Below, piece by piece: positions 2,453-44,620 of a stretch of 47,999 nucleotides of DNA. Made by a program: the position numbers and the translations under genes. The notes beneath the pieces are model-generated. The model ran no database searches, was not told the DNA's origin, and worked only from the letters and a program-made list of their open reading frames with translations. This DNA is from a virus: IMG/VR virus record IMGVR_UViG_3300012096_000003, positions 1 to 47,999 of that record, one strand, 5' to 3'. Numbering within the stretch: position 1 is the stretch's first letter; every line of letters begins with the position of its first letter.

Positions 2453-4164
2453 GTTTCCTCGATCTCTACCAGGGGAATCAGGATCAGGCGGCGAGGATGC
2501 AGCCGAATGAGGGCACGCGGCTGCCGACCGGGTTCGATGAGAATTTCAGCGCGGCCTGGAGCGATGGAAGACTGTTCAGCCAGTCGATTGCCAAGCTCAA
2601 TGCGCGGGCCTCGGCACTCGACGACTATGCCGATGAGGTCAAGCGCCAGACCGGCGGCGATCTGACGGAGGATTTGGCTCCAAAAGAAGGTGGCGTGCCG
2701 CTGGATTACGATGCCATCAATGCCAAGGTGGCGGCGCTGAAGGCGAAAAATCAGGCGTTCACAATCGATCCGCTATCCGACGAGGAGATCGATAGACGCG
2801 CGCTCGCCAAAGCCCAGGCTGCACACCGCACCTATGAGACGCTGCAGACGGGCGAGAAGACCTGGGGCGGCTCGTTCGGCACCGGGCTTGGCAGCGCGGC
2901 GGCGTCGGCGGCGGATCCGATCAATATCGTGGCGCTTGGCGTGGCGCCGGAGGCGGCGGGCATCAGCATCGTGGCTTCGGCGCTGCGCTGGGGCGCGCTT
3001 GCGGGGCTGTCGCAGGCTGCGATCGAGTTCTCCAGCGATCAGTTCAAGGAGCAGGTGCAGCCCGGCTACACCGAGAGCGGGGCGCCCATCCGCGAGATCG
3101 GCGGGGCCTTCATCAGCGGTGCGGTGCTCAGCGGCAGCGTCAAGGCACTCGGCAACGCCTGGACCCGCGTCAAGACTGGCGCTTGGCCAACCTCGGTGCG
3201 CGATGCCGGCAACGTCATTGAGAGCGAGGCGAACGTCGCTAATACCAACCCGTTTCCGGGGGCGGAAGGCGAGGTCGCGCACCACGAGGCGCTGGTCAAA
3301 ACGATCGACGATATTTTGGCGGGGCGGCCGGTCCAGATCGACGGTATTATCACGCCTGAATTTCTAGATCGCTCGCGGATGATGGTTCAAAGCCTTCAGG
3401 CTAATGAGCCGATGAGGTTGCCTGTCATCAATCGTCGCGCGATCGAGCTTGTCGCAGAGCAGGACAAACTCTCCCGCCGCGATGCGGAACTGGCCTCGAA
3501 CCTTGAGACTATGCCGCAGGGCGATATCTCTGCGGCCGACCGGCTCAACCGGCTGCAGGCGGTCGATCAGCAGATTGCGGCGACAGAGGATCTTGCCGAG
3601 AAGCGGAAGCTCGGCGAGCGGCGCGATCAGATCCTGGTCAACACCAACCCGGAAGCCCTGCAGGCTGCCGCCGCACCGATCGAGGCCAGGCGCCAGGCCG
3701 AAGCTGAGCGCGCCTCAATTGCCGCCCGGCTGGACGATATCACCGCGGAACACGCCAATCTGCAGGCCTCCTCGCTGCCTCCGATGGAATTACCGGCGCT
3801 TGGTGCTCGCGAGCGCATTCCGACCGGCCCAAAGGGGCAGTTCGAGATGGATCTGCAGCCAGCGGCGGAAGAGCCCGTCACGCCTAAGGTTGCGGTATCG
3901 AAGGAACCTGCGATCCAGCCGCCACTGCAAACCACGGAGGAAATGACCAAGACCCTGACCGCGCCGGACCACCAGGATGCGATCCGGGCCGATGTCGACC
4001 GTGAACGCGCGCTGGGAGACGTGCAGGTGCCGGGAGTCGATGAGAACGGCAATCACACCATGATCAGCATCGACAAGGCGATGGATGAGGTCGACGCCTA
4101 CAAGCAGGCAGCAGAGCAGATTCAGGCCTGCGCTAATCCGCCAACGGAAGAGAAGGCTTCGTAA
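2449..4164 (+). CDS. Probable internal virion/ejection protein, 571 aa
   Basis: The gene is translationally coupled to the lysozyme-domain protein (ATGA overlap) and to the next gene (TAATG at 4164). Roughly residues 145-245 hold a Gly/Ala-rich hydrophobic stretch (GTGLGSAAASAADPINIVAL; ISIVASALRWGALAGLSQAA) that could insert in a membrane. The C-terminal half is charged, helical and Gln/Glu/Ala-rich, with coiled-coil character. No enzymatic motif is visible. Its place between two other very large virion-type proteins and its composition suggest an ejected core protein, comparable in position to T7 gp15/gp16. That role is inference. It could also be a structural tail-interior protein. Confidence 0.7.
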   Translation: MSFLDLYQGNQDQAARMQPNEGTRLPTGFDENFSAAWSDGRLFSQSIAKLNARASALDDYADEVKRQTGGDLTEDLAPKEGGVPLDYDAINAKVAALKAKNQAFTIDPLSDEEIDRRALAKAQAAHRTYETLQTGEKTWGGSFGTGLGSAAASAADPINIVALGVAPEAAGISIVASALRWGALAGLSQAAIEFSSDQFKEQVQPGYTESGAPIREIGGAFISGAVLSGSVKALGNAWTRVKTGAWPTSVRDAGNVIESEANVANTNPFPGAEGEVAHHEALVKTIDDILAGRPVQIDGIITPEFLDRSRMMVQSLQANEPMRLPVINRRAIELVAEQDKLSRRDAELASNLETMPQGDISAADRLNRLQAVDQQIAATEDLAEKRKLGERRDQILVNTNPEALQAAAAPIEARRQAEAERASIAARLDDITAEHANLQASSLPPMELPALGARERIPTGPKGQFEMDLQPAAEEPVTPKVAVSKEPAIQPPLQTTEEMTKTLTAPDHQDAIRADVDRERALGDVQVPGVDENGNHTMISIDKAMDEVDAYKQAAEQIQACANPPTEEKAS

Positions 4165-6584
4165 TGGCAACCGTGATGGAGTGTATCGAAAAAATGGTGG
4201 CGGCGAAACAGATCAGCCGCGCCATCGCCGATGAAGCAATCGAGACCTTCAAGCGCAGCAAGGCCGAATATTCCTATGCGCGCGGGCCCGCCAGTGCAGA
4301 TGCGGCGGCGGCCCAGGTCGTTGCGAAATCGATGAGCGACAAGGCGGCCGAGAAGCAGATTTCCATCGCGGCAAGTGTCAAGACATGGCGTGCGCTGGAA
4401 GCACGCACCGATATTGCCGGGAAGAACATCAACGAATCCGTGATGGCGACGCTAACCAAAACGGCGCGCGGCGATGATGTGCGGGGCGAGAATATCGATT
4501 ACAAGGGAAAGGCGGTCAAGGACTGGCTGTTCGGCATGCTCGGCCCCGAGATCGAGAAGTTCAAGCCGGGGTTTTTCGCCAATCAGAAATTGATCACCAG
4601 CGCCGAGAACTTCATCAAGGAACGGTTCGGCATCGATACCGGCGATACGCTGGCAAAAGCCGTCTCGAATGGATTTCAGAAGGTGATCGACGAGGGCTCG
4701 GCGCGTGCGAAGGCTGCGGGCAAGATATTTTCCGAATTGGAAGACTGGCGCCTGCCACAGCATTGGTCACCATCGCGCGTCGCGCAATTCAGCCAGGATG
4801 AATATGTCCGAGATCATCTCAACGAGATTGCGACCGGCGGCCTAAAGCTGTTCGACAAGGAGACCAACCGCTATGCAACCGCGCCGCAATATTCGGAGAT
4901 GCTGAAAAAGGCGTGGTCCGACATCAAGACACAAGGCGGCGACGACGGGCCATTCTCCAAGAACATGCGCACCTTCGAATTCCAGCCGGGCGCAGAAGGC
5001 GCGGCGTCATGGCTGAAGCTGCAGGGCAAATACGGCATTGGCAACGAGATCATCGGCGCGGTTGATCAGCACGTCAACAACATGGCACGCACAATCGCCA
5101 TGCATGAGATTTACGGCCCCAATCCGGATGCGACCTTCAAGGCGCTGATGCGCAAGGTGAACGAAGGGCCGGGCTCGTCACTGGTGCGGGGCACGCGCTG
5201 GCTCGACAGCCCGCGGGCGCTGCAGCTCACCTATGACAATCTCGCAGGCCGCGGTCATCCCATCGCCAACGAGTTCTGGGCGCGGTTCTGGTCCGGTGCG
5301 CGCGAGGTGGTCGGCGTGGCGAGCTTGCGCAATCTGCCGATCACGATCATCCCCGGCGATACCGCGATGTCGTTCCTGTCGGCCAATTTCAACGGCATGT
5401 CTGGGCTGGATATTCTGTCCCATGTTTTTGACGGCAAGATGACCCGAGAGGTTGCGCAGCATTTGCAGGTCAGCGCTGGCGGCTATGGCGATTTCATCAA
5501 CAACAACGTGCGGAAATATGAGGATCAGCTCAACGTCTCCGGCATGGTCCGCAAGGTGTCGCGCCAGATCGTCAAGGCGACCGGCGCCGACTGGTGGACG
5601 ACGAACGGGCGCTTGGGGGCCCAGATCTCCTATCTGCATATGCTGCAGGGGGAAAGTGGTAAAGCTTTCGCCGATATCGATCCCGCCTTGCGCGACAATT
5701 TCCTCGCCCGCTACGGCTTTACCTCCGATGAATGGAACCGGATGCGGGGCCAACAGCCATGGATCGCGCGCAACGGCGCCAAATACATGGATGTGACGGA
5801 GATGGAGCGGCCACTCTCCGAGCGGCTGATGGCGGCGATCAAGGAGCAATCCGCCTTTGCCTTCCACCAGCCCGATGCGCGCACCCAGGCAATCATGCGG
5901 GGCGGGGCGCAGGCCGGTTCCGTGGGCGGAGAGCTGCAATTGATGCTCGGCCAATACAAGCAGTTCACCATGGAGCGCATGACGACCCACCTGATGCGGG
6001 TTCTGACCGATGGGCCGATCGAGAACCGGGTGGCACGCGGGTTGGCCTTTACGGCTCTCAGCATGGCGGCAGGCGCGGTCAGCCTGCAGGCGGCTGCCGT
6101 GGTTGGCGGCAAGGACCCGATGGACATGAAAAGCCCGAAGTTCTGGACCGAGGCATTCGCCAGGGGCGGTGCCGGCGGCATCTATGGCGATATTTTGGGA
6201 GCGGCGCTGCATGGCGACCGCGGGGCGGCCAGCATGGTCGGGCAGATGGCGGGTCCCATTCCAGGCATGGCTGGGGACATCTTTTCTGCCGCGACGTCGC
6301 CGCTCAGACAGGTCCTGGACGAATCAGGCAAGCCCACCAAGAGCACCTTCGCCAAGGAGGCGCTCCAGGGCATCCAACGGCATTCGCCGAGCACCTGGTA
6401 CACCAAGACGGCCGTGGACCGCCTGTTCTGGGATAAGCTGCAGGTGCTGGTCGATCCGAACTACCGGCAATCGTTCCGGCGGGCCGAGCAGAATGCCAAG
6501 AAGAAAAACCAGGGTTTCTGGTGGGGCCCAGGATCCAGCGCTCCTACGCGCGCGCCAGATCTGACAACGGCGGTATCCCACTAG
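4164..6584 (+). CDS. Probable large internal virion/ejection protein, 806 aa
   Basis: The start overlaps the previous stop (TAATG). The product is long and mostly alpha-helical. It has a hydrophobic, Gly/Ala-rich segment around residues 630-660 (ALSMAAGAVSLQAAAVVGGK) and another at 670-715, then a basic C-terminus with FWWGPGSSAPTRAPDL. A large protein with a late membrane-like segment at the end of the tail module is typical of podovirus ejection proteins, which form a trans-envelope conduit. No peptidase or transglycosylase motif was recognised. It is the last gene before a short gap that carries the GTGCGTTGCC element and the tail fibre. Confidence 0.7.
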   Translation: MATVMECIEKMVAAKQISRAIADEAIETFKRSKAEYSYARGPASADAAAAQVVAKSMSDKAAEKQISIAASVKTWRALEARTDIAGKNINESVMATLTKTARGDDVRGENIDYKGKAVKDWLFGMLGPEIEKFKPGFFANQKLITSAENFIKERFGIDTGDTLAKAVSNGFQKVIDEGSARAKAAGKIFSELEDWRLPQHWSPSRVAQFSQDEYVRDHLNEIATGGLKLFDKETNRYATAPQYSEMLKKAWSDIKTQGGDDGPFSKNMRTFEFQPGAEGAASWLKLQGKYGIGNEIIGAVDQHVNNMARTIAMHEIYGPNPDATFKALMRKVNEGPGSSLVRGTRWLDSPRALQLTYDNLAGRGHPIANEFWARFWSGAREVVGVASLRNLPITIIPGDTAMSFLSANFNGMSGLDILSHVFDGKMTREVAQHLQVSAGGYGDFINNNVRKYEDQLNVSGMVRKVSRQIVKATGADWWTTNGRLGAQISYLHMLQGESGKAFADIDPALRDNFLARYGFTSDEWNRMRGQQPWIARNGAKYMDVTEMERPLSERLMAAIKEQSAFAFHQPDARTQAIMRGGAQAGSVGGELQLMLGQYKQFTMERMTTHLMRVLTDGPIENRVARGLAFTALSMAAGAVSLQAAAVVGGKDPMDMKSPKFWTEAFARGGAGGIYGDILGAALHGDRGAASMVGQMAGPIPGMAGDIFSAATSPLRQVLDESGKPTKSTFAKEALQGIQRHSPSTWYTKTAVDRLFWDKLQVLVDPNYRQSFRRAEQNAKKKNQGFWWGPGSSAPTRAPDLTTAVSH

Positions 6585-6587
6585 ACG

Positions 6588-6606: not shown

Positions 6607-8364
6607 ATGCCCGGCCCAAATCTGGGCATGAGCCTGACCCGCCGCTTCATCCTCGCTCTTGCCCTGATGGCCGGCCTCACGCCGGTATTTGCGCAAGCTC
6701 CACCGCCGGTTCCAGCGCTTCCGGATGCTGAGAGGCGGACAACCTATAGCATCTCCGGCTCGACCTGTGCCTGCGCGGTCAATTTCGCGATCTATGGCGA
6801 TTCGACCGACGTCCAGAACTGGCTCGAGGTATTCGTTAACGGCGCGCTGGTCACCTCGGCTAACTGGACCATCACCAGTCCGACCGGACCGCTCTCCACC
6901 ATCCCGCGCCCGATCACCGATGCGGTGCTGACCTTCAACGCAGCCCAGACCGGCACGGTGCAGATTGTTGGTGCGCGGCGGCCGCGGCGGACCTCGCAGT
7001 TTGCCGAGAACCAGGGCGTTCCGGCCCGCAACCTGAACCAGGTCTTCACCGATGTCATCGCGATGCTTCGCGAGAACTGGGACAAGACCAACGATGTCAC
7101 CGGCCGCGCCGTGCTCGCCCCCCCGGGCGAGACGCTCAACCTGCTGCCGATCGCAGCCAACCGTTCCAGTCATGGCGCCTGCTTCGATAGCGGCGGCAAT
7201 CTGACTTCCTGCGTATCGATCCCGAGTTCGACTTTTGCCGCCGGCAACGGCATCACCTTCACCGGTGTTGGCCCGACCACGATCAAGGTAAATCTGGCCG
7301 CCGGCTCCAACGTTACGCTCAGCGGCACGAATCCCATCACGATCAACGTCCCGCTAGCTGCCGGCTCTGGTATCGCGCTCACGGGATCGAACCCACTCAC
7401 GATCTCCACCGTTCCTTCGGCCCAGTCGCCTCAGCTCGGCGTCATCCCGACGACATCGCCAATCACGGTCACGATCGCATCGCCTGCGGTTTTCACCTGG
7501 GCAAATCATGGCCTTTTGGCCAATTCGACGGTCTACTTTTGCACGACGGGCGCACTCCCGACAGGTCTTACCGCATGCAATAGCAATGCCTCCGGCCTCA
7601 TCAATGATCCAACACTCTGCTATGTCGTCGGTTCTTCGATCACTCTGAATACCTTTCAGTGCGCCACCTCTATCGCGAATGCCAACGCGGGCACCTCCAT
7701 CAATACAACCGGAGCGCAATCCGGAACCCATACGGCCTTCGCTAACTATTTCGCCTGCGCAGGCTGTATTGGCGAATACAAATTCCATCTGACGTTGACA
7801 AATAATGCCAACGTCACGACAGCCGTAAACACGATCTATAATTCGCTCAGTTTGTCTGCCGGCGTATGGGAAGTAGGGGGAACTACCGGAATAGTTGGTA
7901 CAGGTGGGGCCACGGTTTGCGCCGATACCCACGCGAGCTATGGCATCGGCATCAGCAGCATCGCAACCGCGCCATTCGGCGGCTCGCTAGGTTATCACAT
8001 CACCTCGAACAATTCCAATTGCATGCTGTTCACGTTGGACAGTAGTCAGATCGTGGTACCGAGCCCAGGCCCAAGCACAATTAACTTTGTAGGTCTGCCG
8101 GACTTCTCCGGCGGTACTGCAACCCTGTATGGCGTGGCACACGCGAAGCGAATGTATCGAAGAAGATATCGGGTGCGTTGCCGAAGTCGCGCATCCTGCC
8201 ATGGTTCTGCCCGAATGGAGGCGAGCCGGCATGACCATCAATTTCCCGAAGTTTGCCGATGCCTTGAAACGCCTCTGGCCGAACAGCGACGTCACAATCA
8301 AAGGATTGGGCGCCGGCATCATCGCCGCAGCCCCGACCGTGTTTCCGAAATACGGCTGGGATGA
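6607..8364 (+). CDS. Tail fibre with T7-like head-binding domain and signal-peptide-like N-terminus; 3' end probably frame-shifted
   Basis: Residues from about 35 to 150 resemble the virion-binding N-terminus of T7-type tail fibres: a hydrophobic beta-rich section with NWLEVFVNGAL, then LNQVFTDVIAMLRENWDK. The middle holds three similar beta repeats of about 20 residues (e.g. LAAGSNVTLSGTNPITI). A better start may be ATG 6628, which gives MSLTRRFILALALMAGLTPV...FAQ, a textbook Sec signal peptide and odd for a fibre. From about 8150 the frame turns Arg-rich and overlaps the endolysin by 134 bp. The -1 frame there gives a sensible tail, with its TGA at 8232-8234 overlapping the endolysin ATG (ATGA). 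The true end is therefore probably 8234, reached after a sequencing indel or a frameshift. Confidence 0.75.
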   Translation: MPGPNLGMSLTRRFILALALMAGLTPVFAQAPPPVPALPDAERRTTYSISGSTCACAVNFAIYGDSTDVQNWLEVFVNGALVTSANWTITSPTGPLSTIPRPITDAVLTFNAAQTGTVQIVGARRPRRTSQFAENQGVPARNLNQVFTDVIAMLRENWDKTNDVTGRAVLAPPGETLNLLPIAANRSSHGACFDSGGNLTSCVSIPSSTFAAGNGITFTGVGPTTIKVNLAAGSNVTLSGTNPITINVPLAAGSGIALTGSNPLTISTVPSAQSPQLGVIPTTSPITVTIASPAVFTWANHGLLANSTVYFCTTGALPTGLTACNSNASGLINDPTLCYVVGSSITLNTFQCATSIANANAGTSINTTGAQSGTHTAFANYFACAGCIGEYKFHLTLTNNANVTTAVNTIYNSLSLSAGVWEVGGTTGIVGTGGATVCADTHASYGIGISSIATAPFGGSLGYHITSNNSNCMLFTLDSSQIVVPSPGPSTINFVGLPDFSGGTATLYGVAHAKRMYRRRYRVRCRSRASCHGSARMEASRHDHQFPEVCRCLETPLAEQRRHNQRIGRRHHRRSPDRVSEIRLG

Positions 8365-8896
8365 CGATCTTCTGGTCTGCCACGCCATGGCGCAATTCTC
8401 GGAAGAGACCGACGCCGGCCGCGAGATGCAGGAGAATATGAATTACAGTGCAGCAAGGCTGCTGCAGATCTTCCCCACGCATTTCAATCATGCGGAAGCG
8501 ATCGCATTTCAGCATCAGCCCCGCCTGATCGCGGATAAGGCCTATGGCGGCCGGATGGGCAATAAGCCGCCACCGTCGGATGATGGCATAAACTGTCGCG
8601 GGCAAGGCCTGTCACAGCTCACGGGAGCCGGAAATTACAAGGAACTGCAATCGCACTATGGGCTACCGGTCTACGACAAGCCGGAGATTCTGCTCGATCC
8701 AAAGTTCGCGCTCGAAATCGGGCTCGCCGATCTGACGATGTGTGGCTGCCTGTCTTACGCCAAGAATGACAATCTAGTCGGCGTATCCTCTATGCTCAAC
8801 GTTGGCCATCTCGTGACCGACCCTCACAAAATAAATGGCTTCGGATTACGCCAACAATGGCTTGGTCTGTGGAAGCACGCGATGGGTGTCCCATGA
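8231..8896 (+). CDS. GH19-like endolysin, 221 aa
   Basis: A cytoplasmic muralytic enzyme of the GH19 (chitinase-like) type is proposed. It has CHAMAQFSEETDAGREM (candidate catalytic Glu58/Glu59), ENMNYSAARLLQIFPTHF, KAYGGRMGN, and CRGQGLSQLTGAGNYKEL, the usual GH19 endolysin signatures in order. The ATG at 8231 was chosen because the family begins close to this point and because it overlaps the tail-fibre stop in the alternative frame. The frame is open upstream to 8129, but that part looks like a shadow. No signal peptide is visible, so release should depend on the holin nearby. Its TGA overlaps the next start at 8893 (ATGA). Confidence 0.88.
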   Translation: MTINFPKFADALKRLWPNSDVTIKGLGAGIIAAAPTVFPKYGWDDDLLVCHAMAQFSEETDAGREMQENMNYSAARLLQIFPTHFNHAEAIAFQHQPRLIADKAYGGRMGNKPPPSDDGINCRGQGLSQLTGAGNYKELQSHYGLPVYDKPEILLDPKFALEIGLADLTMCGCLSYAKNDNLVGVSSMLNVGHLVTDPHKINGFGLRQQWLGLWKHAMGVP

Positions 8897-9090
8897 TCGG
8901 TTGGCACATCTTCTCGACCGTCTGCATGATCCTCTATCCTGAGCAGTGCTACACGAAAGTGATGCCTATAGCCTACGCAACACAGCATCAATGTCTCGTC
9001 GTTCTTGCGGACCCATGGAATCACATCCGCGAATTGCCGCTGATAGTCGAGGGATCGCGCTCCATCAAACTCGGATGCAAAACTCAATGA
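8893..9090 (+). CDS. Small unknown protein of the lysis region, 65 aa
   Basis: It starts with an ATGA overlap on the endolysin stop and ends with an ATGA overlap on the next gene. The product has a hydrophobic N-terminus (MIGWHIFSTVCMILYPEQCY) and three or four Cys residues. It belongs to no family I can name. The tight coupling in a lysis cassette suggests a part in lysis or in host surface interaction, without direct evidence. Confidence 0.7.
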   Translation: MIGWHIFSTVCMILYPEQCYTKVMPIAYATQHQCLVVLADPWNHIRELPLIVEGSRSIKLGCKTQ

Positions 9091-9305
9091 CCATCGTGTG
9101 GACCGCATGGCTGTGCATTATCGCCGGAAGCTTCGTTTGTTTCGAGGCCTTCGCGCTCAAGACCGACCGCACGACGCTATCTCGTTACGTCTGGACAATA
9201 AGTAAGGCGTGGCCGCCGTTCCCATGGATCGCTGGCGTGCTGACCGGATTTCTCGCCGCGCATTTTTGGTGGGGCGGAATAGTTTGCTTTTCACCTGTTC
9301 AATAG
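9087..9305 (+). CDS. Small membrane protein of the lysis region, 72 aa
   Basis: Two hydrophobic segments are visible: near residues 3-24 (VWTAWLCIIAGSFVCFEAFAL) and 46-68 (WIAGVLTGFLAAHFWWGGIVCF). A short polar stretch with KTDRTTLSRYVW lies between them. It is translationally coupled to the previous gene (ATGA) and sits just ahead of the holin candidate. It could be a second holin, an antiholin, or a membrane accessory protein; the sequence does not decide. Confidence 0.7.
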   Translation: MTIVWTAWLCIIAGSFVCFEAFALKTDRTTLSRYVWTISKAWPPFPWIAGVLTGFLAAHFWWGGIVCFSPVQ

Positions 9306-9317
9306 GAGATATCGAAC

Positions 9318-9653
9318 ATGGCAATTATATCTCAAGATCAGGTTGCTGGTCAGCTCCGGATTATTATTCCGGCGCTGGGAACCATCGTAACTGCATTCGG
9401 CGTGACCTCGGCCCAAGCCGGTAGCTGGACCCAGATTGCGCTCGGCATGGTGGGGCCGCTGTCCTACCTCATCGTAGCAATTTGGTCCTTCATCGCAAAC
9501 TCTCGCGCATCGATCATGGCAGCAGCCGCAAAGCCAGCCGCTCCCGGCGCACCTCTCCCCCAAATTGTTCTTCCCGAATCCGAGGCAGCTCTTGCCAAGC
9601 AGCTACCGAGCAACGTGAACACAACTGCCGATGTGAAAGTGGTGACGAAATGA
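9318..9653 (+). CDS. Holin candidate, 111 aa
   Basis: The ATG follows an AGGAGA ribosome site. Two hydrophobic stretches (LRIIIPALGTIVTAFGV, about residues 13-30, and IALGMVGPLSYLIVAIWSFI, 40-59) are followed by an Ala/Pro-rich soluble tail. Size, topology and position directly after the endolysin fit a holin that permeabilises the inner membrane. The TGA overlaps the next ATG at 9650. Confidence 0.75.
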   Translation: MAIISQDQVAGQLRIIIPALGTIVTAFGVTSAQAGSWTQIALGMVGPLSYLIVAIWSFIANSRASIMAAAAKPAAPGAPLPQIVLPESEAALAKQLPSNVNTTADVKVVTK

Positions 9654-10213
9654 GGATCTTTCTCACAATCGCGCTGCTGCTGATCGGCTCGGCCGCACAG
9701 GCGGAAGTATTGCCACGGGCGCGCCCGGTGGCGCCTGCACCCACGCAAGTTGATGACACTCCTGCACCGTCCGGGAAATGTCTGATCCCATGGGACCCGC
9801 TGAAACTCTGCGGTGCTCTAACGGGCAAACCGGAGGAAGATTTCCAACGAGTCGTCAAGCGCATTCAGGGATTGACTCAGAAGGATTTGGATTATGCGAT
9901 CCTCAAAGCTAAGAGTGCCGGGACGCTTCCGAGCAAGATTCGCCTGCAATGTCTTCAGGCAATATCTGATGCTAAAACTCAATTCGATGGCGAGCTAAAG
10001 GACGCTAATGGCAATGTCGTTCCGAGGCCTGATCCGGCATTGATCACCAGCCTCGAAGAAACGGCCGAACTTGTCGATAATCTATCTCCGCAAGGGGCGC
10101 TACTTACATCCTGCGCTGGTACGGCACAGATGTTCAAAACCAATGTTCTTGCTGCCATCAACGCAATTGTTACGGGCGCCGCTTCGATCGCTGCTGCGCC
10201 AGCAGGTTTCTAA
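9650..10213 (+). CDS. Secreted/periplasmic protein of the lysis region, 187 aa
   Basis: The N-terminus MRIFLTIALLLIGSAAQA is a clear Sec signal peptide with a probable AQA|EV cleavage site. The mature part starts Pro-rich and continues as helices with conserved-looking Cys residues (GKCLIPWDPLKLCG, IRLQCLQA, LLTSCAG). It ends with an Ala-rich hydrophobic stretch (AAINAIVTGAASIAAAPAGF). It is coupled to the holin candidate by ATGA. A spanin-like or periplasmic lysis helper is possible from its position. I do not recognise a family function. Confidence 0.75.
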   Translation: MRIFLTIALLLIGSAAQAEVLPRARPVAPAPTQVDDTPAPSGKCLIPWDPLKLCGALTGKPEEDFQRVVKRIQGLTQKDLDYAILKAKSAGTLPSKIRLQCLQAISDAKTQFDGELKDANGNVVPRPDPALITSLEETAELVDNLSPQGALLTSCAGTAQMFKTNVLAAINAIVTGAASIAAAPAGF

Positions 10214-10224
10214 ATGCAGTCTGA

Positions 10225-10485
10225 ATGAAAATGGACCCTCAATGGATCATTGCCGGATGTGCCGCAATCACATTGCTAATTTTGTGGACCAGCACCGTGA
10301 TTGCGGCAGCCCTGTGGCTGATGAACAAGCTCAAGGAGCTGAAAAAGGAAATCCTCGCCGACTTCAAGGCCAAGCATGAGGAAAATGCTCAGAAGGTGGA
10401 GGCAATGCGAGCTCTTGTCATGCGCCACGATCTGATCCTTGATCCCGAGTTCAACGGAAGCGGGAAGAGCCGAGCCCGGCAATGA
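10225..10485 (+). CDS. Membrane-anchored coiled-coil protein, possible i-spanin, 86 aa
   Basis: One strong membrane segment (IIAGCAAITLLILWTSTVIA, about residues 8-28) is followed by a Lys/Glu-rich helix (KLKELKKEILADFKAKHEEN). That architecture and the place in the lysis cassette fit an inner-membrane spanin, but no partner o-spanin lipoprotein is visible inside this gene. The TGA overlaps the following ATG (10482). Confidence 0.7.
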   Translation: MKMDPQWIIAGCAAITLLILWTSTVIAAALWLMNKLKELKKEILADFKAKHEENAQKVEAMRALVMRHDLILDPEFNGSGKSRARQ

Positions 10486-10583
10486 CGGAACCCGGCAAGG
10501 ACGCACTCACCGTCCTGATCCTGGTCGCGATTGGTCTCGTTTCATGGGCCATTGAGACATTCCTCGGGCGCTGGAAACGGTAA
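10482..10583 (+). CDS. 33-aa single-pass membrane microprotein
   Basis: Reading from ATG 10482 (ATGA overlap with the previous stop) gives MTEPGKDALTVLILVAIGLV, then SWAIETFLGRWKR and a TAA. It has a single transmembrane helix and a basic C-terminus. The exact coupling and clean hydrophobic profile support a real gene although it is very short. The role is unknown; a lysis regulator or holin accessory is possible. Confidence 0.65.
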   Translation: MTEPGKDALTVLILVAIGLVSWAIETFLGRWKR

Positions 10584-10588
10584 TCGGA

Positions 10589-10598
10589 GTGCGTTGCC
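10589..10598 (+). promoter_or_regulatory. GTGCGTTGYC element, copy 2
   Basis: An exact GTGCGTTGCC in the 63-bp gap between the lysis cassette and the secreted adhesion-like cluster. See copies at 6588, 34478 and 43895. Confidence 0.5.
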
Positions 10599-10646
10599 GG
10601 CTGGTACCCTAAACGGCAAAATCCTCTGAAACCACGGGGATTTGCC

Positions 10647-10997
10647 ATGAAGCGCGTCCTATTCGCATGCCTGCTCTGGGCCGGGTCCTGCCTGGGGGCA
10701 GCGGCCTCGTCCTGCAACGTCACCGAATTTGTGCTGACCGCTGATGCAGGTGTGCAGGTCACACGCATCCCGCCGCTGGTCGACCAGGCTCCAATCACGA
10801 CTTCCGGCACCAGCGCTCAATCCTCGGCATTTGGCGGCGATACAAAAATGGTGCGGGTCTGGTGCGATACACAATCCGCGGTTGCCTGGGGTGCCAATCC
10901 GACCGCGACGACGAACAACATGCCCCTGTCCGCTGGCGTAGGCGAATATTTCCAGGTGCTGGCGGGGCAGAAGGCCGCGTTCATTTTGAGGCCATAG
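10647..10997 (+). CDS. Small secreted protein, 116 aa
   Basis: MKRVLFACLLWAGSCLGAAA is a Sec-type signal peptide. The mature part is beta-rich with two Cys (SSCNVTEF, RVWCDT) and ends VGEYFQVLAGQKAAFILRP. That style (FGANPTAT..., EYF.V..G.K.A) is common in small phage appendage or decoration proteins, although the signal peptide is not. It is the first gene after a GTGCGTTGCC element and starts a run of five signal-peptide genes. Function not assigned. Confidence 0.75.
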   Translation: MKRVLFACLLWAGSCLGAAASSCNVTEFVLTADAGVQVTRIPPLVDQAPITTSGTSAQSSAFGGDTKMVRVWCDTQSAVAWGANPTATTNNMPLSAGVGEYFQVLAGQKAAFILRP

Positions 10998-10999
10998 CG

Positions 11000-11209
11000 A
11001 TGAAAACCGTCATCGCTCTCACCCTCCTGATCGCTTCGCTGGTTGCTGCCCATGCCCTCGGGATCGGAAAAGAGGGGCTCGGATTTGGTCACCTCGGCGC
11101 GCAGCAGAAATCAATCTCGATCGCCCCACTCACCCCATGCACATCGACCGGTATCTATAATCTCAGCAATGTCTGCAACGACATCTATTTTATCGGAGCG
11201 CTGAAATGA
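11000..11209 (+). CDS. Small secreted protein, 69 aa
   Basis: The N-terminus MKTVIALTLLIASLVAAHAL is a signal peptide. The short mature part is Gly/Ser-rich with two Cys (TPCTSTGIYNLSNVCND). It starts 3 bp after the previous stop, and its TGA overlaps the next ATG at 11206. No family recognised. Confidence 0.7.
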   Translation: MKTVIALTLLIASLVAAHALGIGKEGLGFGHLGAQQKSISIAPLTPCTSTGIYNLSNVCNDIYFIGALK

Positions 11210-12159
11210 ACAAGCTTGCTCTAATCCTTGCGTTCCTGCTCGGAAGTATCGCGAGCGCATTAGCGGCCTGCACCAGTCCGGCGGTGATGCACGATTTCCC
11301 AGGCACAGCTTTCAATATGAGCCTTGCGACGAATGCGGGGGATGGCAACTGTGCATCGAATATGGCGATCATTGGAACGTTACCAGCCTTTGCTGCGATA
11401 CCGGCGTTCAAATTTGATCAGACGACGCCAGGCACGACCAATGGCGTACAGATCAATGCGGCGCTTCCTGCAGGCACCAATCTTCTGGGCAAAGTAGGTA
11501 TCGACCAGACAACGCCTGGAACAACCAACGGCGTTCAAGTAAATAGTTCTGCGCTGCCGACCGGTGCCTCGACATCGGCCAATCAAACCAACAAGACCCA
11601 GTTTACCCAATTAACTGACGGAACCAATGCTGCTGCTACTTATACCGGTTATGGTACGGCCCCTACAGGCAACGTTCCTGGCGTCAATGCCTTCGTCACC
11701 AATGCGACGCCCGGCATCGCTAACAACGCCGACGGCATCGCGGCGGTTGCGGCGGGTTCTACCTCTCCGGTCCCGGTCAACAACTACAATTATGTTTTCA
11801 ATGGCGCGACTTGGGACCGGCTTCGATCAATCGCGGGTGGCAGCCTACAGACGGTCAATGGCGGCAATACATACAACACCGTGGCTGCATCGCAGAGCGC
11901 GCAGGCCTTGACCGGCGGCAGCGGCGGTGCGACCGGCGATTATCTGTCGCATTGCATGGTATTTCCAACCTCGACGTCTCCCGGTGTCGTCACCATCCTT
12001 GATAATGCCTCGACGATCTTTCCATTCCCAGGTGGTGCAAGTAGCCTTTCCAACTTGGTGCCGTTTCCGATCGCGATTGGCGCCAAGAGCACCAGCGGCG
12101 CATGGAAAGTAACGACAGGCGCCAATGTGTCGGTGACTTGCGTCGGGAAATTCACATGA
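11206..12159 (+). CDS. Secreted fibre-like protein with internal repeats, 317 aa
   Basis: A signal peptide (MNKLALILAFLLGSIASALA) precedes a low-complexity Asn/Thr/Gly/Ala-rich, beta-strand-type body. The motif DQTTPGTTNGVQ occurs twice about 32 residues apart, the second time preceded by LGKVGI. Repeats of this type are frequent in phage tail fibres and baseplate-associated spikes. The C-terminal third (SHCMVFPTSTSPGVVTILDN) looks like a compact beta domain. It overlaps both neighbours by 4 bp. A receptor-contact or decoration role is inference. Confidence 0.75.
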   Translation: MNKLALILAFLLGSIASALAACTSPAVMHDFPGTAFNMSLATNAGDGNCASNMAIIGTLPAFAAIPAFKFDQTTPGTTNGVQINAALPAGTNLLGKVGIDQTTPGTTNGVQVNSSALPTGASTSANQTNKTQFTQLTDGTNAAATYTGYGTAPTGNVPGVNAFVTNATPGIANNADGIAAVAAGSTSPVPVNNYNYVFNGATWDRLRSIAGGSLQTVNGGNTYNTVAASQSAQALTGGSGGATGDYLSHCMVFPTSTSPGVVTILDNASTIFPFPGGASSLSNLVPFPIAIGAKSTSGAWKVTTGANVSVTCVGKFT

Positions 12160-12950
12160 TGGTGCCGGTTCGCACGATCGCATGGCTGTTTGCCATCGCG
12201 CTTGCGATGTGTCCGACACTTTCGGCCGCGCAATCAGTGCCGCTGCCGAGCTTTCCGCCGGGATTGTTTGCTGGAAGGGGCGCGATTGATGCGCCCAGCG
12301 GCAGCGGTGCTTCCATCGCTCCGTTATTTGGCCAAGCCAGCACCGGCGGGGCAAGTCCGCTCACAATTGGTTCTGGAATCGTATTTTCGACCGGTGTTGT
12401 AGGAGTTGGTATCGCGCAGGATCGTGGCGGCGGGGCTGTGGGGGCGCCCACAGCCGTGACGATCAATGGCGTTGCAGCAACTCAAATAGGCACGACCGTC
12501 TCCGATGGAACGCAGAACGGTGTCAGTTGCTGGTACGCGCCAGTTACGGCAGGAACCGGTAACGTCACGATTACCAATGTCGGAGGTTTCGGCGAAACTG
12601 CGGCCAATGGATGGATGATCACTGGAAATCTCAGTAACATCCCAACCGCCAACAGTTCCTTCAACGGCTTTTCTCCGACCCAAGCCGATCCTCAAGGGCC
12701 GATGAGCTTGACCGTCGCTAGTGGCGGTGTTGCAATGGCGGTGGTCGGCTCTAATTTCAAGCCGGTAACCGTGAATCCGACGACGTGGGTCGCCGCGACG
12801 AGAGATGCATTGACCGAAGCAGAAAACGCCACTGGCAACGAAATCGCAATCGCAGGCGCACATATCACGGGAGCCGGAACCTTCGGTATTGAAGCCAGCG
12901 GCACGACTTCGTGGCTGTATTCCGGCATGTGCGGCGCAGCGTGGCAATGA
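12156..12950 (+). CDS. Secreted beta-rich protein, 264 aa
   Basis: It starts ATGATG at 12156, overlapping the previous TGA. The signal peptide is MMVPVRTIAWLFAIALAMCP...SAAQ. The mature part is Gly/Ser/Thr/Ala-rich with a segment like those of phage Ig-like or jelly-roll surface proteins (GNVTITNVGGFGETAANGW; AGAHITGAGTFGIEASGTTS). Two Cys are present (SCWYAP, MCGAAW). It couples by ATGA to the large propeller protein at 12947. Exact fold and function are not recognised. Confidence 0.75.
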   Translation: MMVPVRTIAWLFAIALAMCPTLSAAQSVPLPSFPPGLFAGRGAIDAPSGSGASIAPLFGQASTGGASPLTIGSGIVFSTGVVGVGIAQDRGGGAVGAPTAVTINGVAATQIGTTVSDGTQNGVSCWYAPVTAGTGNVTITNVGGFGETAANGWMITGNLSNIPTANSSFNGFSPTQADPQGPMSLTVASGGVAMAVVGSNFKPVTVNPTTWVAATRDALTEAENATGNEIAIAGAHITGAGTFGIEASGTTSWLYSGMCGAAWQ

Positions 12951-15559
12951 GTAGGTGCCGTTCCGTCTTCATTTCGCTTCTTCTTATTCTCTTCGGCGCG
13001 CGGGCTGAAGCCGGCTGGGCTGTTTTCCAGGACAGCAACTCGGCCAACGCGTCTTTCACGCCACAATGGCAGGATTTCAGCCTCGGCGCCGGCGGCAATG
13101 CCTACGGGATCAAGATCTATCCTGACGGCACGCAGCTTATCCAGAATGACACCTATGGCGGTCACATCTACAAGCCGACCGGGACGTGCGTCGGATCGAA
13201 CAATTCGACTTATGCCGCGCCATGTTGGCAGCAACTGATCACCGCGACCTCGCTGCCGGCGAGCGCGGTAGGCCCGCAATTCGTCGGCAGTGGCAATCTC
13301 GGCACGGCCGAACTCGTCGCGTGCGCCAGCAACACCAACGTGCTCTACATGATCTACACCAATCTGGTGTATGTCAGCACGAACCGCGGCGCTAACTGGG
13401 TAGCCACGACGCAGACCATCACGATCGCGGGCAATCGCGGTCCTGGAAATCATCCGCGCCTCGCGTGCGACCCTAATAATCCCGACGTCATCTACGCGAT
13501 CTCGCCGTCGTCTGGCACCTTCGTTAGCACCAACGGACGATCCGGACTCAGCGCGGCCTGGACGCAGGTCACCGCCGTCGGTTCCGGTACCAGCGGCAAT
13601 GGCGGTATCATCGCGTTCGATGCGTCATCAGCATTCTCCGGTGGCTTTACGCAGCGCTTTATGATCTGCACCTATGGCACGGGGTGCTATCTGACATCGA
13701 ATGGCGGTGTGGCGGGCGGCGGATCGTTCTCACTGACCAGCTCGGGACCGACGACAGGTTTGCAGATCAAATCTGACAAGTTCGGCCAGTTCTGGGTCGT
13801 GAATACGGGCGCCAGTGTTTTCCTATTCTCGGGAGGCGCATGGTCGACCAAGACCCCAGGCGTCAACGCGAATACCATCGCGATCGATCCGAACAGCGCT
13901 TCGCAGGTCGCCAACCATCTCGCCATCATCAATTCGTTCTCGGGTCAAATTCTTGTCTCCATCGATAACGGTGGTTCATGGCAGAACACTACCAACAATC
14001 CAGGGCAGGCTGCCTCCGCTCCGCAACCGCCATGGCTCGCGACCGCCAATCAACAGAGCGCTGGATTGCCATTCTTCTCCGGTATCACGATCGAATACGA
14101 TGGCTCCAGCAATCTCTGGATGGGCGCGGGTCTTGGTGCATGGGAGACGCCGGCACCGACCTCCGGCAGTTCAACGGTGTGGACCGCGAATACGGTCGGC
14201 ATCGAACAACTTGTTACCAACCAGATCATCTCGCCGGTTGGCGGTTCGCCACTCGCCGCCGTCTGGGACAAGGGTTTTTTCCTTGTCAAAAACCCGGACG
14301 TCTTTCCGTCAACCTACTGGAACAATTCCCCCAATTCCAATTGCGGCCAAGCGGCCTGCAGCCCGATCATGGGCGGCTGGGCGCTTGATCATGTCGCGGG
14401 TACGCAGTTCATCACCGGCGTCGAGCGCAGTAATCTGGATTCGAGCTATTCGCCGGCGGCGTCATCGGACGGCGGCAATACGTGGACCCGATGGGCAGCC
14501 TTACCCGCAAGCCCCGACGTCGGCGGCGCGATCGCGGCTTCGACCACGACGAATTGGGCTGTCGTACCAGGCCAAAATACGGCGCTTCAATTCACGACCA
14601 ATGGGGCTACAAGTTGGGCCGCCGCAACCGCAACCGGCAACAATGGCTGGATTGCCAATTACGTCAACAACCGTCAGCCGCTCGCCGCCGATCGCGTGAC
14701 GGCGGGCGTGTTCTATGCGGTTGATCTCGGAACTGGGCCTGCCGGCACACAGAAGTTCTGGGTTTCGACCAACAACGGAGCCACTTTCACGAGCCCAGGC
14801 GCACCGTTCGATGGTAGTCCTTTCAACGATAGTCTGATTACCCCGCCGACGCTCGGCAGCGTCAATACCGCAGGTCACGTGTTCTATGTGACTGGCCAGC
14901 AATCCAGCCCATCGACCGGCCATATCTGGAAATCCACCAATCAGGGCACCTCATGGACGTGCCTGACTGCGACGGGGGCCGGGTGCTCCGGCGCGACGCT
15001 AACCGATCCGAATAATGTCGGCTTCGGCGCGCCTAAGCCGGGCGGTGGCGGCTATCCGATGATCTACGCTATTGCGACCATGAGCAGCGTGTACGGCGTT
15101 TATGCCAGTGCTGATGCCGGTGCGACGTGGGCGCTCATCAACGTGCCTGCCAGCCAGCAGATTTGGCCAGGGAATAGCGTTGATGATCCGACCTGGGTGA
15201 CAGGGGATTCCAACGTCTATGGGCGCCTGTACGTCGCCTACCGCGGCTCAGCGGGGGCTTACATCGATCTTGCCGATGCCTGCCCCTGGGTAAACTTTTC
15301 CAACACCAACCCGAATGCCTCGCTTACTGGAACCATTACACTGACCGCGCAACATTCCGGCTTGGTGCCGGTCACCAGCGTGCAATTCAGTGTCGATGGT
15401 AGTAACATCGGAGCGCCGCAAACCGGGGCTAGCCCGTACTCGGTATCATGGAACACGGGCGGCGTAGCGACCGGAGCTCACACGCTTAAAGTTCAAGCGA
15501 CCGGTAACGGCTGTTCCAGTTCAGGGAATTCGTTTTCGATACCAGTGACCACACACTGA
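12947..15559 (+). CDS. Secreted Asp-box beta-propeller protein with C-terminal Ig-like domain, 870 aa (candidate receptor-binding/depolymerase protein)
   Basis: A signal peptide (MSRCRSVFISLLLILFGARA) is followed by a long beta-propeller region. It contains many Asp-box-type loops: VSTNRGANW, VSIDNGGSW, SSDGGNTWTRW, TTNGATSW, VSTNNGATF, KSTNQGTSW and ASADAGATW. Such repeats occur in sialidases, GH74-type glycosidases and BNR proteins. The last about 85 residues form an Ig-like domain (SLTGTITLTAQHSG, VTSVQFSVDGSNIGAP, GAHTLKVQATGNGC). No catalytic triad could be assigned, so enzyme versus lectin-like binding is open. It ends the rightward late region and overlaps the convergent gene at 15521 by 39 bp. 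Confidence 0.8.
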   Translation: MSRCRSVFISLLLILFGARAEAGWAVFQDSNSANASFTPQWQDFSLGAGGNAYGIKIYPDGTQLIQNDTYGGHIYKPTGTCVGSNNSTYAAPCWQQLITATSLPASAVGPQFVGSGNLGTAELVACASNTNVLYMIYTNLVYVSTNRGANWVATTQTITIAGNRGPGNHPRLACDPNNPDVIYAISPSSGTFVSTNGRSGLSAAWTQVTAVGSGTSGNGGIIAFDASSAFSGGFTQRFMICTYGTGCYLTSNGGVAGGGSFSLTSSGPTTGLQIKSDKFGQFWVVNTGASVFLFSGGAWSTKTPGVNANTIAIDPNSASQVANHLAIINSFSGQILVSIDNGGSWQNTTNNPGQAASAPQPPWLATANQQSAGLPFFSGITIEYDGSSNLWMGAGLGAWETPAPTSGSSTVWTANTVGIEQLVTNQIISPVGGSPLAAVWDKGFFLVKNPDVFPSTYWNNSPNSNCGQAACSPIMGGWALDHVAGTQFITGVERSNLDSSYSPAASSDGGNTWTRWAALPASPDVGGAIAASTTTNWAVVPGQNTALQFTTNGATSWAAATATGNNGWIANYVNNRQPLAADRVTAGVFYAVDLGTGPAGTQKFWVSTNNGATFTSPGAPFDGSPFNDSLITPPTLGSVNTAGHVFYVTGQQSSPSTGHIWKSTNQGTSWTCLTATGAGCSGATLTDPNNVGFGAPKPGGGGYPMIYAIATMSSVYGVYASADAGATWALINVPASQQIWPGNSVDDPTWVTGDSNVYGRLYVAYRGSAGAYIDLADACPWVNFSNTNPNASLTGTITLTAQHSGLVPVTSVQFSVDGSNIGAPQTGASPYSVSWNTGGVATGAHTLKVQATGNGCSSSGNSFSIPVTTH

Positions 15560-20993: not shown

Positions 20994-21518
20994 TTAGTCA
21001 GCCGCAGGCATTTCGAACGGGTAAACCGCCACGCGCGGCTCGACGTACACCGGCTTCAAAGACTTGTCGTTTGGATCGAGGCAGATGACCCATGTTCCAT
21101 CTGCAGCGGAAGGCATATAGAGCCCATTTGGCTCGGGCTGATCAGCGTCCCAATAATGCCACTGACCTTGCGTCCCGTCGGGATAATATGGCGCAGTGAC
21201 CTTCGGCGCCTTTGGCGCGGTGTACTGCGTGGAGTACGGGAATCCATATCCGATAGATGTCGCCGGACAGACGCGGTGACGCTTCCCATTGAGATCGATG
21301 ATATAAGTATAGGTCACGAGATGCGGGCTATCGCGCAATTCGTAGATCGTCTTCAACATGCGCTTTTCGGTAAAGTTGGTGATCGCTGGCATGCCAACGA
21401 CGGTTGACGCCTGATTTTGGTTCAATTGCGTCTGACGTGCTTCGCGAGCTTGACCGCTGTTGTCGTCCATACAGCCGGTGAGAGGCAGGGCAAGAGTGAT
21501 CAGGATAAGACGCTTCAT
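20994..21518 (-). CDS. Phage-encoded lipoprotein, 174 aa
   Basis: The N-terminus MKRLILITLALPLTGCMDDN has a clean lipobox (LTGC), so the product should be lipidated at the Cys and anchored in the membrane facing the periplasm. The mature part has a conserved-looking beta domain with LRDSPHLVTYTYIIDLNGKR and HRVCPATSIGYGFPYSTQ. Lipoproteins expressed from lysogeny regions can block superinfection or change the surface; which applies here is unknown. Confidence 0.75.
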   Translation of the reverse strand: MKRLILITLALPLTGCMDDNSGQAREARQTQLNQNQASTVVGMPAITNFTEKRMLKTIYELRDSPHLVTYTYIIDLNGKRHRVCPATSIGYGFPYSTQYTAPKAPKVTAPYYPDGTQGQWHYWDADQPEPNGLYMPSAADGTWVICLDPNDKSLKPVYVEPRVAVYPFEMPAAD

Positions 21519-37203: not shown

Positions 37204-37637
37204 ATTACGAGCCCGAAGTCTGGAATGTCGTGTTCAACCGTGAGGCGGCGTCGGGCTGGGCTAAATGGGTGCCGGGCCGCTACAAGCATGTGCGGGCTTA
37301 TGCCTTCGTGCCGGCGACCAGGACCTGGCTGTTCTACGATGTCAGTTTCGCCGGCACTGTAATTGCGGCGATCCCGCATGGCGAGGATTCCTATGCCAGG
37401 ATCTGGGAGTTCATCGGCCCGGAGGGGGCTTCCGATATCGTGGCCATGAAGCGATTACCATCGCGGCGGCGCCTATTCCCGTGGTCGAACTGGTGCACCC
37501 CGGCGCTGCGGCACCTGCTGAACTTGCCTGGTAGTGCGTTGCGGCCAGACAGCTTCCATCGCGATTGTCTCGCCAACGGTGGAGTGCCGTTCGAGGCAAA
37601 GTATGCAAGCGCCGCAATACCAGCAGCCCCCGCCTGA
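37200..37637 (+). CDS. Unknown protein between terminase and portal, 145 aa
   Basis: A GTG start overlaps the terminase stop. The N-terminal half is beta-rich (YKHVRAYAFVPATRTWLFYD; VIAAIPHGEDSYARIWEFIG). The C-terminal part has SNWCTPALRHLLNLPGSALR and HRDCLANGGVPFEAK. A lone Cys ahead of a helix and a later His could suggest a cysteine-hydrolase-like fold, but this is weak. Podoviruses often keep a small conserved gene here. Confidence 0.65.
   Translation: MNYEPEVWNVVFNREAASGWAKWVPGRYKHVRAYAFVPATRTWLFYDVSFAGTVIAAIPHGEDSYARIWEFIGPEGASDIVAMKRLPSRRRLFPWSNWCTPALRHLLNLPGSALRPDSFHRDCLANGGVPFEAKYASAAIPAAPA
37534..37543 (+). promoter_or_regulatory. GTGCGTTG variant inside coding sequence
   Basis: GTGCGTTGCG, sharing nine bases of the element, sits 60 bp before the small gene at 37603 but inside the preceding gene. 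It may be chance. Confidence 0.25.
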
Positions 37638-42526: not shown

Positions 42527-43026
42527 TGGATCTGGAATTCACCAGGATCACCAATTCGCTCGCCCCGGAGCTCGCCAAGACCTACGTGATCTTATGGGAC
42601 ATCGGGCCCTTGAAGCCGTCCGCGCCGGCCAAGCCGGTGGCCCCGAAGGGCAAGGAAGGCGAGCCCGAATACGACATCGCCATGGTCGAGTTCAAGGAAT
42701 CGCTGGAGGCCTATGCCGAGGCCAGGAAGGCCTATCTGGCCGGGCTGAAGGAGCACGCGATCTGGCAGAAGGATCAGGGCGGCGCCATCGAGCGCCAGAT
42801 GTTCTCCTGCGACGCCAATGACGCGCTGGAGCGCGCGCCGGAACGCTATTTCATCTCGTCCTCGACCCGCGGCTATTCCCAATTGAAAAACCAGGGCCTG
42901 CCCGCCGGCTACCGGCCGGGCCGCGGCCATGACGCCAATCTCGAGCGCGCGCGCCAGGGCGAGGCCGAATTTGCCGCTGCGCGCGCCAAGGACCCCGTAT
43001 TCGGAAACCCGGAGCTACGCCAATGA
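42526..43026 (+). CDS. Unknown head-region protein, 166 aa
   Basis: MDLEFTRITNSLAPELAKTY with a Lys/Pro-rich linker (PSAPAKPVAPKGKEGEPEYD) and helices, ending with a motif containing GYSQLKNQGLPAGYRPGRGH. Overlaps the next gene by 4 bp. Possibly a head-completion factor; unproven. Confidence 0.6.
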   Translation: MDLEFTRITNSLAPELAKTYVILWDIGPLKPSAPAKPVAPKGKEGEPEYDIAMVEFKESLEAYAEARKAYLAGLKEHAIWQKDQGGAIERQMFSCDANDALERAPERYFISSSTRGYSQLKNQGLPAGYRPGRGHDANLERARQGEAEFAAARAKDPVFGNPELRQ

Positions 43027-43598
43027 TGATCCGTCGCCTTCTGCTCGCGCTTGCGGTCGCTGCATTTGCCGCTCTGCTGGGCGCTCCGGTACAGGCTGCC
43101 CAGGTCAACATGTGCGCGGCCGATGTCGCCGGCGGCGTGCAGGGCCCGCGGACCTTCGGCGGCACCGGCAGCCAGGTCCCAAGCGGCGCGACCTACATCC
43201 TCAACGGCCAGGGCTGCGCGCTGGTCCAGTTGGCCGATGTCGGCTATTTCCAATCCCAGGGCTTTACCCAGGCTTCCTCTCAGAACGCCATCGTCTTCAA
43301 CACCGGCATTGCCACCGGAACCACTAATTTCGTCATTGGCACCCTGCCGGCCAAGGCCTATATCCAGCAGATCATCTTCTCGAACTCGGTAGCGGCCACG
43401 GCCGGAACCATTTCGATCGGTTCTACTGCTAGCGGCACTCAGATCGTGACCGGTACGGTTGTCGGCGCCTCCGTCGATATCGCGGCGACCATTTTGCTGC
43501 CTGTAAGCGCCACTGGCGTTGCGACGTCCCTCAATATGTCATCCACCGCATGGAACAGCTCCAACGTCACTGTAACCGTCGTCTACGGGTATTACTGA
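43023..43598 (+). CDS. Signal-peptide-bearing virion-region protein, 191 aa
   Basis: MMIRRLLLALAVAAFAALLG with AQAAQVNM at the predicted cleavage site is a clear Sec signal peptide. The mature protein is a Thr/Ser/Gly/Ala-rich beta structure (IQQIIFSNSVAATAGTISIG; TGTVVGASVDIAATILLPVS; SSNVTVTVVYGYY), like phage head fibres or decoration domains. A signal peptide in a head gene cluster is unexpected. Confidence 0.72.
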   Translation: MMIRRLLLALAVAAFAALLGAPVQAAQVNMCAADVAGGVQGPRTFGGTGSQVPSGATYILNGQGCALVQLADVGYFQSQGFTQASSQNAIVFNTGIATGTTNFVIGTLPAKAYIQQIIFSNSVAATAGTISIGSTASGTQIVTGTVVGASVDIAATILLPVSATGVATSLNMSSTAWNSSNVTVTVVYGYY

Positions 43599-43933: not shown

Positions 43934-44620
43934 ATGGCAGCCTTCGAATGGCCGGTCGACAAGCTCGGCGTCATCAATTCAGCGCTTTCGCAAACCGGCG
44001 ATAATCTCGTTGCGGTTGCCGATGACGGCTCACCGGAATGGACGGTCTGCTCGCCCGGCTACGAACGCGCGCTGGCATACATGATCGAAACTCATGGCTG
44101 GTCGCAGGCGACCGATGTCCGCATCCTGCAGCCGGCCGGCAATGTCCCAGACGACGATCAGTTCGACACCGCCTATCCGCTGCCGGACGATCTCGTGCAC
44201 CTGATCTGGGTGCGCATTTCCGACCTGCCGACGGTCTGGGGCCTGCTCAACAATCAACTCGTAGTCAATGCGCAGGGCGGTCCGCCGCCACCGCCGGTCG
44301 GTACCGTCACGCCCGCAATCGTCACCATCAAAGGCATCTTCTCAACCAATTCCGATCCGGTGAACGCCACGCCGACCTTCGTGGTGGCGCTGGTCGCCTT
44401 CGTGATGTCCGGCGTCTATCGCGGACTGCACAAGGATGTCGGCCAGGCCGAGCGGATGTGGAACAGCGGGAAGGCGCTGCTGCAGGAGGCGATGACCCGC
44501 CATGATCAGCAATCACCGAAACGGTCGATGTTCAATTCGCGTCTTTCAGCCGCCCGCCGCATTCGCCGCCCGTGGCCGATCGTGCCGCCGGGATGGGGTG
44601 GAACTGGCAGTCCGGGGTGA
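43934..44620 (+). CDS. Tail-tube adaptor protein (T7 gp11-like position), 228 aa
   Basis: MAAFEWPVDKLGVINSALSQ with TGDNLVAVADDGSPEWTVCS and YERALAYMIETHGWSQATDV is the typical opening of podovirus 'tail tubular A' type adaptor proteins that ring the portal. A Val-rich hydrophobic strand follows (FVVALVAFVMSGVYRGLHKD). It ends in an Arg/Pro/Gly-rich tail. Order (adaptor then large hub) is as in T7. Confidence 0.75.
   Translation: MAAFEWPVDKLGVINSALSQTGDNLVAVADDGSPEWTVCSPGYERALAYMIETHGWSQATDVRILQPAGNVPDDDQFDTAYPLPDDLVHLIWVRISDLPTVWGLLNNQLVVNAQGGPPPPPVGTVTPAIVTIKGIFSTNSDPVNATPTFVVALVAFVMSGVYRGLHKDVGQAERMWNSGKALLQEAMTRHDQQSPKRSMFNSRLSAARRIRRPWPIVPPGWGGTGSPG

Follow-up and report, generated by a model that had tools for sequence, protein, structure and literature searches.

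In the textbook view, the tail fibres of tailed phages are added in the cytoplasm before lysis. The locus described here therefore raises the question of why a tail fibre gene, and several of the late genes around it, should encode N-terminal leaders of the Sec type. The window, meaning the whole 47,999-nucleotide stretch that was analysed (IMG/VR record IMGVR_UViG_3300012096_000003), had been annotated in a preliminary description as carrying a late block of secreted 'virion' proteins. Three explanations had been offered for the leaders: export followed by joining of the particle during or after lysis, coating of the lysogen surface, or uncleaved leaders acting as membrane anchors.

Bases 1-123 of the window are repeated exactly at 47877-47999, and this 123-base terminal repeat indicates that the genome is complete, either circular or circularly permuted, with 47,876 bp (about 47.9 kb). 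IMG/VR classes the record as linear despite the repeat, and the internal virion protein gene at 47407 runs on into the ORF at 92. Encoded in the window are a tyrosine integrase, a T7-type head-tail connector, a major capsid protein, a tail adaptor, a nozzle, an endolysin, an internal virion protein with a tail lysozyme domain and a phrog_684 virion protein. The integrase together with the T7-type connector, adaptor and nozzle set identifies a temperate podophage with a T7-like tail. Window genes for which both ends are given below lie on the plus strand unless stated otherwise. The phrog_684 structural protein (4164..6584, E = 7.6e-103) is without a signal peptide (SP), lies directly upstream of the fibre and was used as the neighbour marker. 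The gp11-like adaptor (43934..44620; phrog_394, E = 6e-13) and the gp12-like nozzle (44627..46918; phrog_376, E = 8e-27), both SP-less, are the presumed docking partners of the fibre. The endolysin (8231..8896; phrog_181, E = 3.9e-33) also has no signal peptide. The holin candidate (9318..9653) is a membrane protein proposed from its hydrophobic segments and from homologues beside lysis genes in loci L005 and L014; it had no Pfam or PHROG match.

The motif GTGCGTTGC, with the variants GTGCGTTGG, GTGCGTTGA and GTGCTTTGC, precedes late genes at window positions 6587, 8172, 10588 and 43894, and lies about 40 nt upstream of the fibre start in many loci, in SP+ and SP-less phages alike. In several cases a stem-loop comes next, its 3' arm reaching up to or into the start codon, with z-scores of about -3 to -4.6 (window 6628 and 10647, L027, L043 and L008) and non-significant values in many others. 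The motif may be a late promoter or an element that controls translation.

Leaders were called with a home-made rule-based scorer that requires a basic n-region, a hydrophobic core and an A-x-A-type site. When calibrated on 162 E. coli K-12 genes, it recovered 25 of 28 known signal peptidase I proteins, and its false calls were mostly multi-pass membrane proteins. The scorer called the fibre (6628) and the genes at 9650, 10647, 11000, 11206, 12156, 12947 and 43023. When the N-termini of these eight were shuffled, 1-9% of trials were called as leaders; for arbitrary internal starts in SP-less late proteins the rate was 0.2%. The Sec leaders ascribed earlier to the same eight genes were therefore borne out: in the signal-peptide prediction that had been suggested as a check, every one of the eight proteins scored as signal and none as non-signal. 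The fibre start at 6628 is also the best placed, as the alternative at 6607 merely adds to the n-region. Two further calls in the window were a weak, spurious one at 46929 and a lipoprotein with an LTGC lipobox (20994-21518, minus strand), which adjoins the integrase in the early region and is a candidate lysogen-expressed envelope protein. No leader was called by the scorer on the portal, scaffold, capsid, adaptor, nozzle or large internal virion genes of the window. Export as a property of all virion proteins is thus ruled out, since the early-assembling ones have no leaders. The Tat route was likewise rejected, with the strict S/T-R-R-x-F-L twin-arginine motif occurring in 1 of 35 fibres.

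The window fibre (6628..8364) has a Sec signal peptide at residues 1-22 ending in AxA|Q, a gp17-like docking domain at approximately residues 25-190 and a Cys-rich distal part. Its frame has no stop where relatives end (window 8130-8364) and extends 134 nt into the endolysin gene, owing to either a lost stop or a sequencing error; the natural end is probably near 8152. By its docking fold, T7-like gene position and SP-less orthologues, it is a genuine T7 gp17-type fibre. An HMM built only from SP-less sister fibres matched it with E = 8.5e-14, and with hhalign the SP+ docking domains scored 97.8-99.1% against the four closest SP-less groups and 74% against the most distant one. Against T7 gp17 alone, hhalign gave a weak match: 34% from the SP-less profile and 1% from the SP+ profile. 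The AlphaFold2 model of the mature fibre domain was of moderate quality (pLDDT 65, reaching 82-88 over most of residues 10-93), and its best structural matches with Foldseek and VIA-align were podophage fibre docking domains: HRP29 (8es4, Z 8.7), T7 (7ey9, Z 8.5), LME-1 (9efk, Z 8.3) and the T7 gp17 N-terminus (7boz, Z 6.2), with cyanophage P-SCSP1u and the T7 proximal half fibre (8dsp) also among them. The fibre gene stands between an internal virion protein gene and the lysis genes, which is the T7 order. By sequence, the fibre N-domain gave nothing convincing against Pfam, NCBIfam and PDB, and one weak 'tail protein' member only in PHROGs. In tblastn searches of 50,697 phage records, the whole fibre, 43023 and 12947 gave a match to the mid-fibre domain only or none, with no phage match at all for 12947, which indicates that there is no close cultured relative. 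A second docking domain was found at none of the loci searched with the SP-less-fibre HMM, and that of the fibre is the only one in the window genome.

Docking-domain searches of viral contigs and genomes resulted in 34 scored loci, a few of which are overlapping stretches of one contig; three are in Bradyrhizobium genomes, presumably as prophages (L006, L007 and L008). As the search patterns of one scan lay in the mature domain, leaders were not selected for by that scan. A leader was present in all 34 docking-domain fibres, with scores of at least 5.07, which falls among the values of genuine signal peptides from E. coli. The leaders are 19-34 residues long and less conserved than the N-domain (48% vs 62%), and the cleavage site has Ala at -1 in 33 of 33, Ala, Ser or Val at -3, and Gln at +1 in 31 of 33. 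A leader of variable length and sequence in front of a strict A-x-A|Q site is as expected of a signal peptide that is cleaved off, rather than of an anchor with a structural role. For the window fibre, cleavage is predicted to leave a mature N-terminus of pyroGlu-APPPVPALPDAER.

The fibre shows the features of a Sec/signal peptidase I substrate: a basic n-region, a hydrophobic core, A-x-A and no later membrane segment. The 19-residue hydropathy maximum across the family was 1.79, giving no sign of a membrane segment after the leader, and neither a lipobox nor a membrane segment was found in the fibre. The suggestion that the leaders are uncleaved membrane anchors is contradicted by the strict site combined with variable leader length, which make an anchor unlikely, and by the even number of mature cysteines. 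A second fibre-like family in these phages, with the motif NRVATTAYVQN and variants, also carries signal peptides and even cysteine numbers (L006 8830, L007 12134, L020 8980, L022 12571).

Exported, disulfide-bonded proteins prefer even numbers of cysteines (PMC7678975). Cysteine content was 1.73% in SP+ fibres vs 0.72% in SP-less fibres, with N-domain medians of 4 and 0, respectively, and the mature count was even in 34 of 35 SP+ fibres, the exception (L039) being cut by the contig end. Among the SP ORF clusters of these phages, 84 had even and 5 odd mature counts, vs 55 even and 80 odd for conserved non-exported genes at the same loci (Fisher p = 7e-18, an optimistic value because the SP clusters are related and not fully independent). 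In the window, the mature fibre has 12 cysteines to its likely end or 16 to the frame end, and the other leader-bearing proteins have 4 (9650), 2 (10647), 2 (11000), 4 (11206), 2 (12156), 12 (12947) and 2 (43023), those of 10647 and 12947 being counted from the translations. The mid-fibre domain has 6 cysteines in the window, vs 0-1 in SP-less tail proteins of Rhizobium, Sinorhizobium, Leptospira and Microbacterium phages. Judged by these sequence comparisons, the fibre domains have gained cysteines relative to their SP-less homologues. Paired cysteines in the mature exported proteins, and not in the non-exported genes, suggest that these leaders function as such.

With the gene upstream of the fibre as the search query, phages could be sampled without regard to the fibre itself. 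The slot after this gene was taken by an SP+ fibre in part of the phages and by an SP-less one in the rest, the N-domains being of one kind. In the tree of the upstream gene the SP state changes at least three times, which rules out a single origin of the state with the phage backbone. The SP+ N-domains fit one clade, with weak support, and one clade combined with three backbone changes indicates that the SP-fibre module has probably moved between phage backbones. A scan with the fibre of Mwe-JY08 found no additional SP-less relatives.

Genes resembling HNH endonucleases by eye lie just upstream of the SP-fibre modules in L050 (10903-11439) and L032 (8912-9430) and are a possible means of module exchange. 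In the Bradyrhizobium prophage L006, two genes are inserted between the SP-fibre and the adaptor (12242-14517, minus strand); by eye, the pair resembles membrane acyltransferases, as in receptor-modifying conversion genes. Mwe-JY08 (L047, PP395640) is listed for Microcystis, and its virion genes match the window lineage. It carries genes such as DUF2312 and DUF1376, which we take to be associated with alphaproteobacterial phages, and its assignment to Microcystis may be questionable.

For the other leader-bearing genes, the label of 'virion' proteins held to differing extents: it probably stands for the fibre, through its docking domain, and probably not for 9650, which groups with lysis-associated exported proteins. 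The 9650 protein (9650..10213) takes the place where relatives have small lipoproteins beside the lysis genes (L010, L014 and L015) and is therefore probably an ordinary exported protein of the lysis cassette. The gene at 10647..10997 encodes the SP version of a small virion-type protein. It has SP+ homologues with 2 mature cysteines in L008, L010, L093 and L094, in the last of which the gene is close upstream of an SP-fibre. Taken with these, leaderless homologues among the structural genes of Pelagibacter phage HTVC106P and cyanophage MinM2 indicate a second virion-type family that gained a leader. AlphaFold2 modelling of the mature protein (pLDDT 49) was too poor for a fold search.

The small protein at 11000..11209, with a G-F-G-x-L-G-A motif, has an SP+ homologue in L010, and the head-region protein at 43023..43598 has one in L026. 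The protein at 11206..12159 is fibre-like, with repeats, and could be a lipoprotein, having a lipobox-like LAAC. For the gene at 12156..12950, L010 has an SP gene at the corresponding place (16107), and it carries a similarly ordered block of five SP genes. The last gene of the block (12947..15559) encodes a BNR/sortilin-type propeller with a bacterial Ig domain, Big_7 (PF15902, PF17957 and PF02012). Virion homologues were not demonstrated for 12947, 12156 or 11206, a point against the model set out below, and a role at the lysogen surface is possible for them.

We put a probability of about 70% on the reading that the fibre and decoration proteins are exported by Sec, oxidised in the periplasm and docked on fibreless particles at lysis. 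In this lineage of T7-type temperate podophages from soil, with Bradyrhizobium as the known hosts, the fibre and several small virion-type surface proteins would be made late as Sec precursors, which would cross the inner membrane unfolded and lose their leader at A-x-A|Q. Folding, trimerisation and disulfide formation would follow in the periplasm, while heads, portal, adaptor, nozzle and internal proteins, all leaderless, would build fibreless particles in the cytoplasm. Once holin and endolysin have opened the envelope, both pools could mix and the gp17-like N-domain could dock on the adaptor and nozzle, a step that would have to work in dilute lysate. The distribution of leaders, absent from early-assembly proteins and present on a fibre-like and decoration-like set, is as this model predicts. 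Of the three explanations first offered, the fibre is best accounted for by export with subsequent joining of the particle at lysis or later, in view of its leader, docking domain and paired cysteines; on this evidence, export is well supported, and docking after lysis is what we infer. Assembly in two compartments, with DNA-filled heads and tails in the cytoplasm and oxidised, stored receptor-binding fibres and decoration proteins in the periplasm, infectious only once lysis mixes both, is on balance probable, if held with a little less confidence than the model as a whole. The notion of an 'export then lyse' module beside the holin and endolysin genes is loosely true of the window, but in relatives the SP-fibre also occurs away from lysis genes. 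As the fibre of prophage L006 sits between capsid-region and adaptor genes, adjacency to lysis is not general.

The exported proteins could instead coat, block or modify the envelope of the producer or lysogen as non-virion proteins, for instance in receptor masking, superinfection exclusion or adhesion. This would be in the manner of lambda Lom, whose signal-peptide gene sits in a region of tail-fibre genes and is active in lysogens (PMC12309495). The temperate nature of the phage, which encodes an integrase, and the lack of a phage match for the 12947 propeller and Ig protein would both suit such a role. However, neither a lipid nor a membrane anchor was found in the fibre, its docking domain is homologous to those of SP-less fibres and is the only one in the genome, and in L006 the SP-fibre is flanked by capsid-region and adaptor genes. 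The SP genes of the block also lie on the late strand in an operon arrangement, 9650 overlapping the holin candidate by ATGA and the later ones overlapping each other in the same way. We therefore consider an envelope coat improbable, and for the fibre, which keeps the sole docking domain of the genome on the late lytic strand, the lysogen-coat explanation found no support.

A dual role draws on the same evidence as periplasmic storage with docking at lysis and needs no extra part: before docking, the periplasmic fibres could bind the receptors from the inner side of the envelope and keep progeny particles from adsorbing again to the dying cell or to its debris. We regard this addition as somewhat less probable still than the envelope coat. 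The leaders could also be unused, with cytoplasmic folding, normal assembly and a hydrophobic N-terminus that is a relic or a structural tail anchor. Sister phages with the same docking domain are leaderless, showing that export is not needed for docking, but the SP form is kept throughout the 34 fibres with a variable sequence and a strict cleavage site, and the paired cysteines are confined to the mature part. Disuse of the leaders is accordingly very improbable.

If docking of periplasmic fibres at lysis is true, the final maturation of some tailed phages occurs outside the cytoplasm. This would bear on disulfide-dependent fibre stability, on the mixing of fibres when phages co-infect a cell, and on the possible misfolding of recombinant fibres from such phages when these are made in the cytoplasm. 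Bradyrhizobium lysogens with such prophages (L006, L007 and L008) make the route directly testable. Among the full-text articles searched, which included few subscription journals, a signal peptide on a tailed-phage fibre was nowhere described. The window fibre belongs to a known kind and differs by its cleavable leader; its assembly route may be new for tailed phages.

Signal peptides on virion proteins are known from filamentous phages, whose coat proteins pIII and pVIII use the host export machinery, staying in the inner membrane and assembling during extrusion. The window fibre, in contrast, has no membrane segment after its leader, and its phage is a tailed phage with lytic release. Lambda Lom resembles the fibre as an SP gene of the tail-fibre region but is an outer-membrane beta-barrel of the lysogen with no tail-docking domain. 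Among SP-less fibres, a close likeness is that of Mwe-JY08 (36866-39808), which has the same docking domain (hhalign 99.1%) and the same genome slot, and differs in having no leader and only 3 cysteines in 980 residues. With T7 gp17, as with the HRP29, LME-1, P-SCSP1u and Kp9 fibres, the window fibre shares the N-terminal docking fold, and the window has both the T7 gene slot, after the internal virion protein and before the lysis genes, and a T7-like portal, adaptor and nozzle. T7 gp17 is without a Sec leader or abundant, even-numbered cysteines, whereas the window fibre has both.
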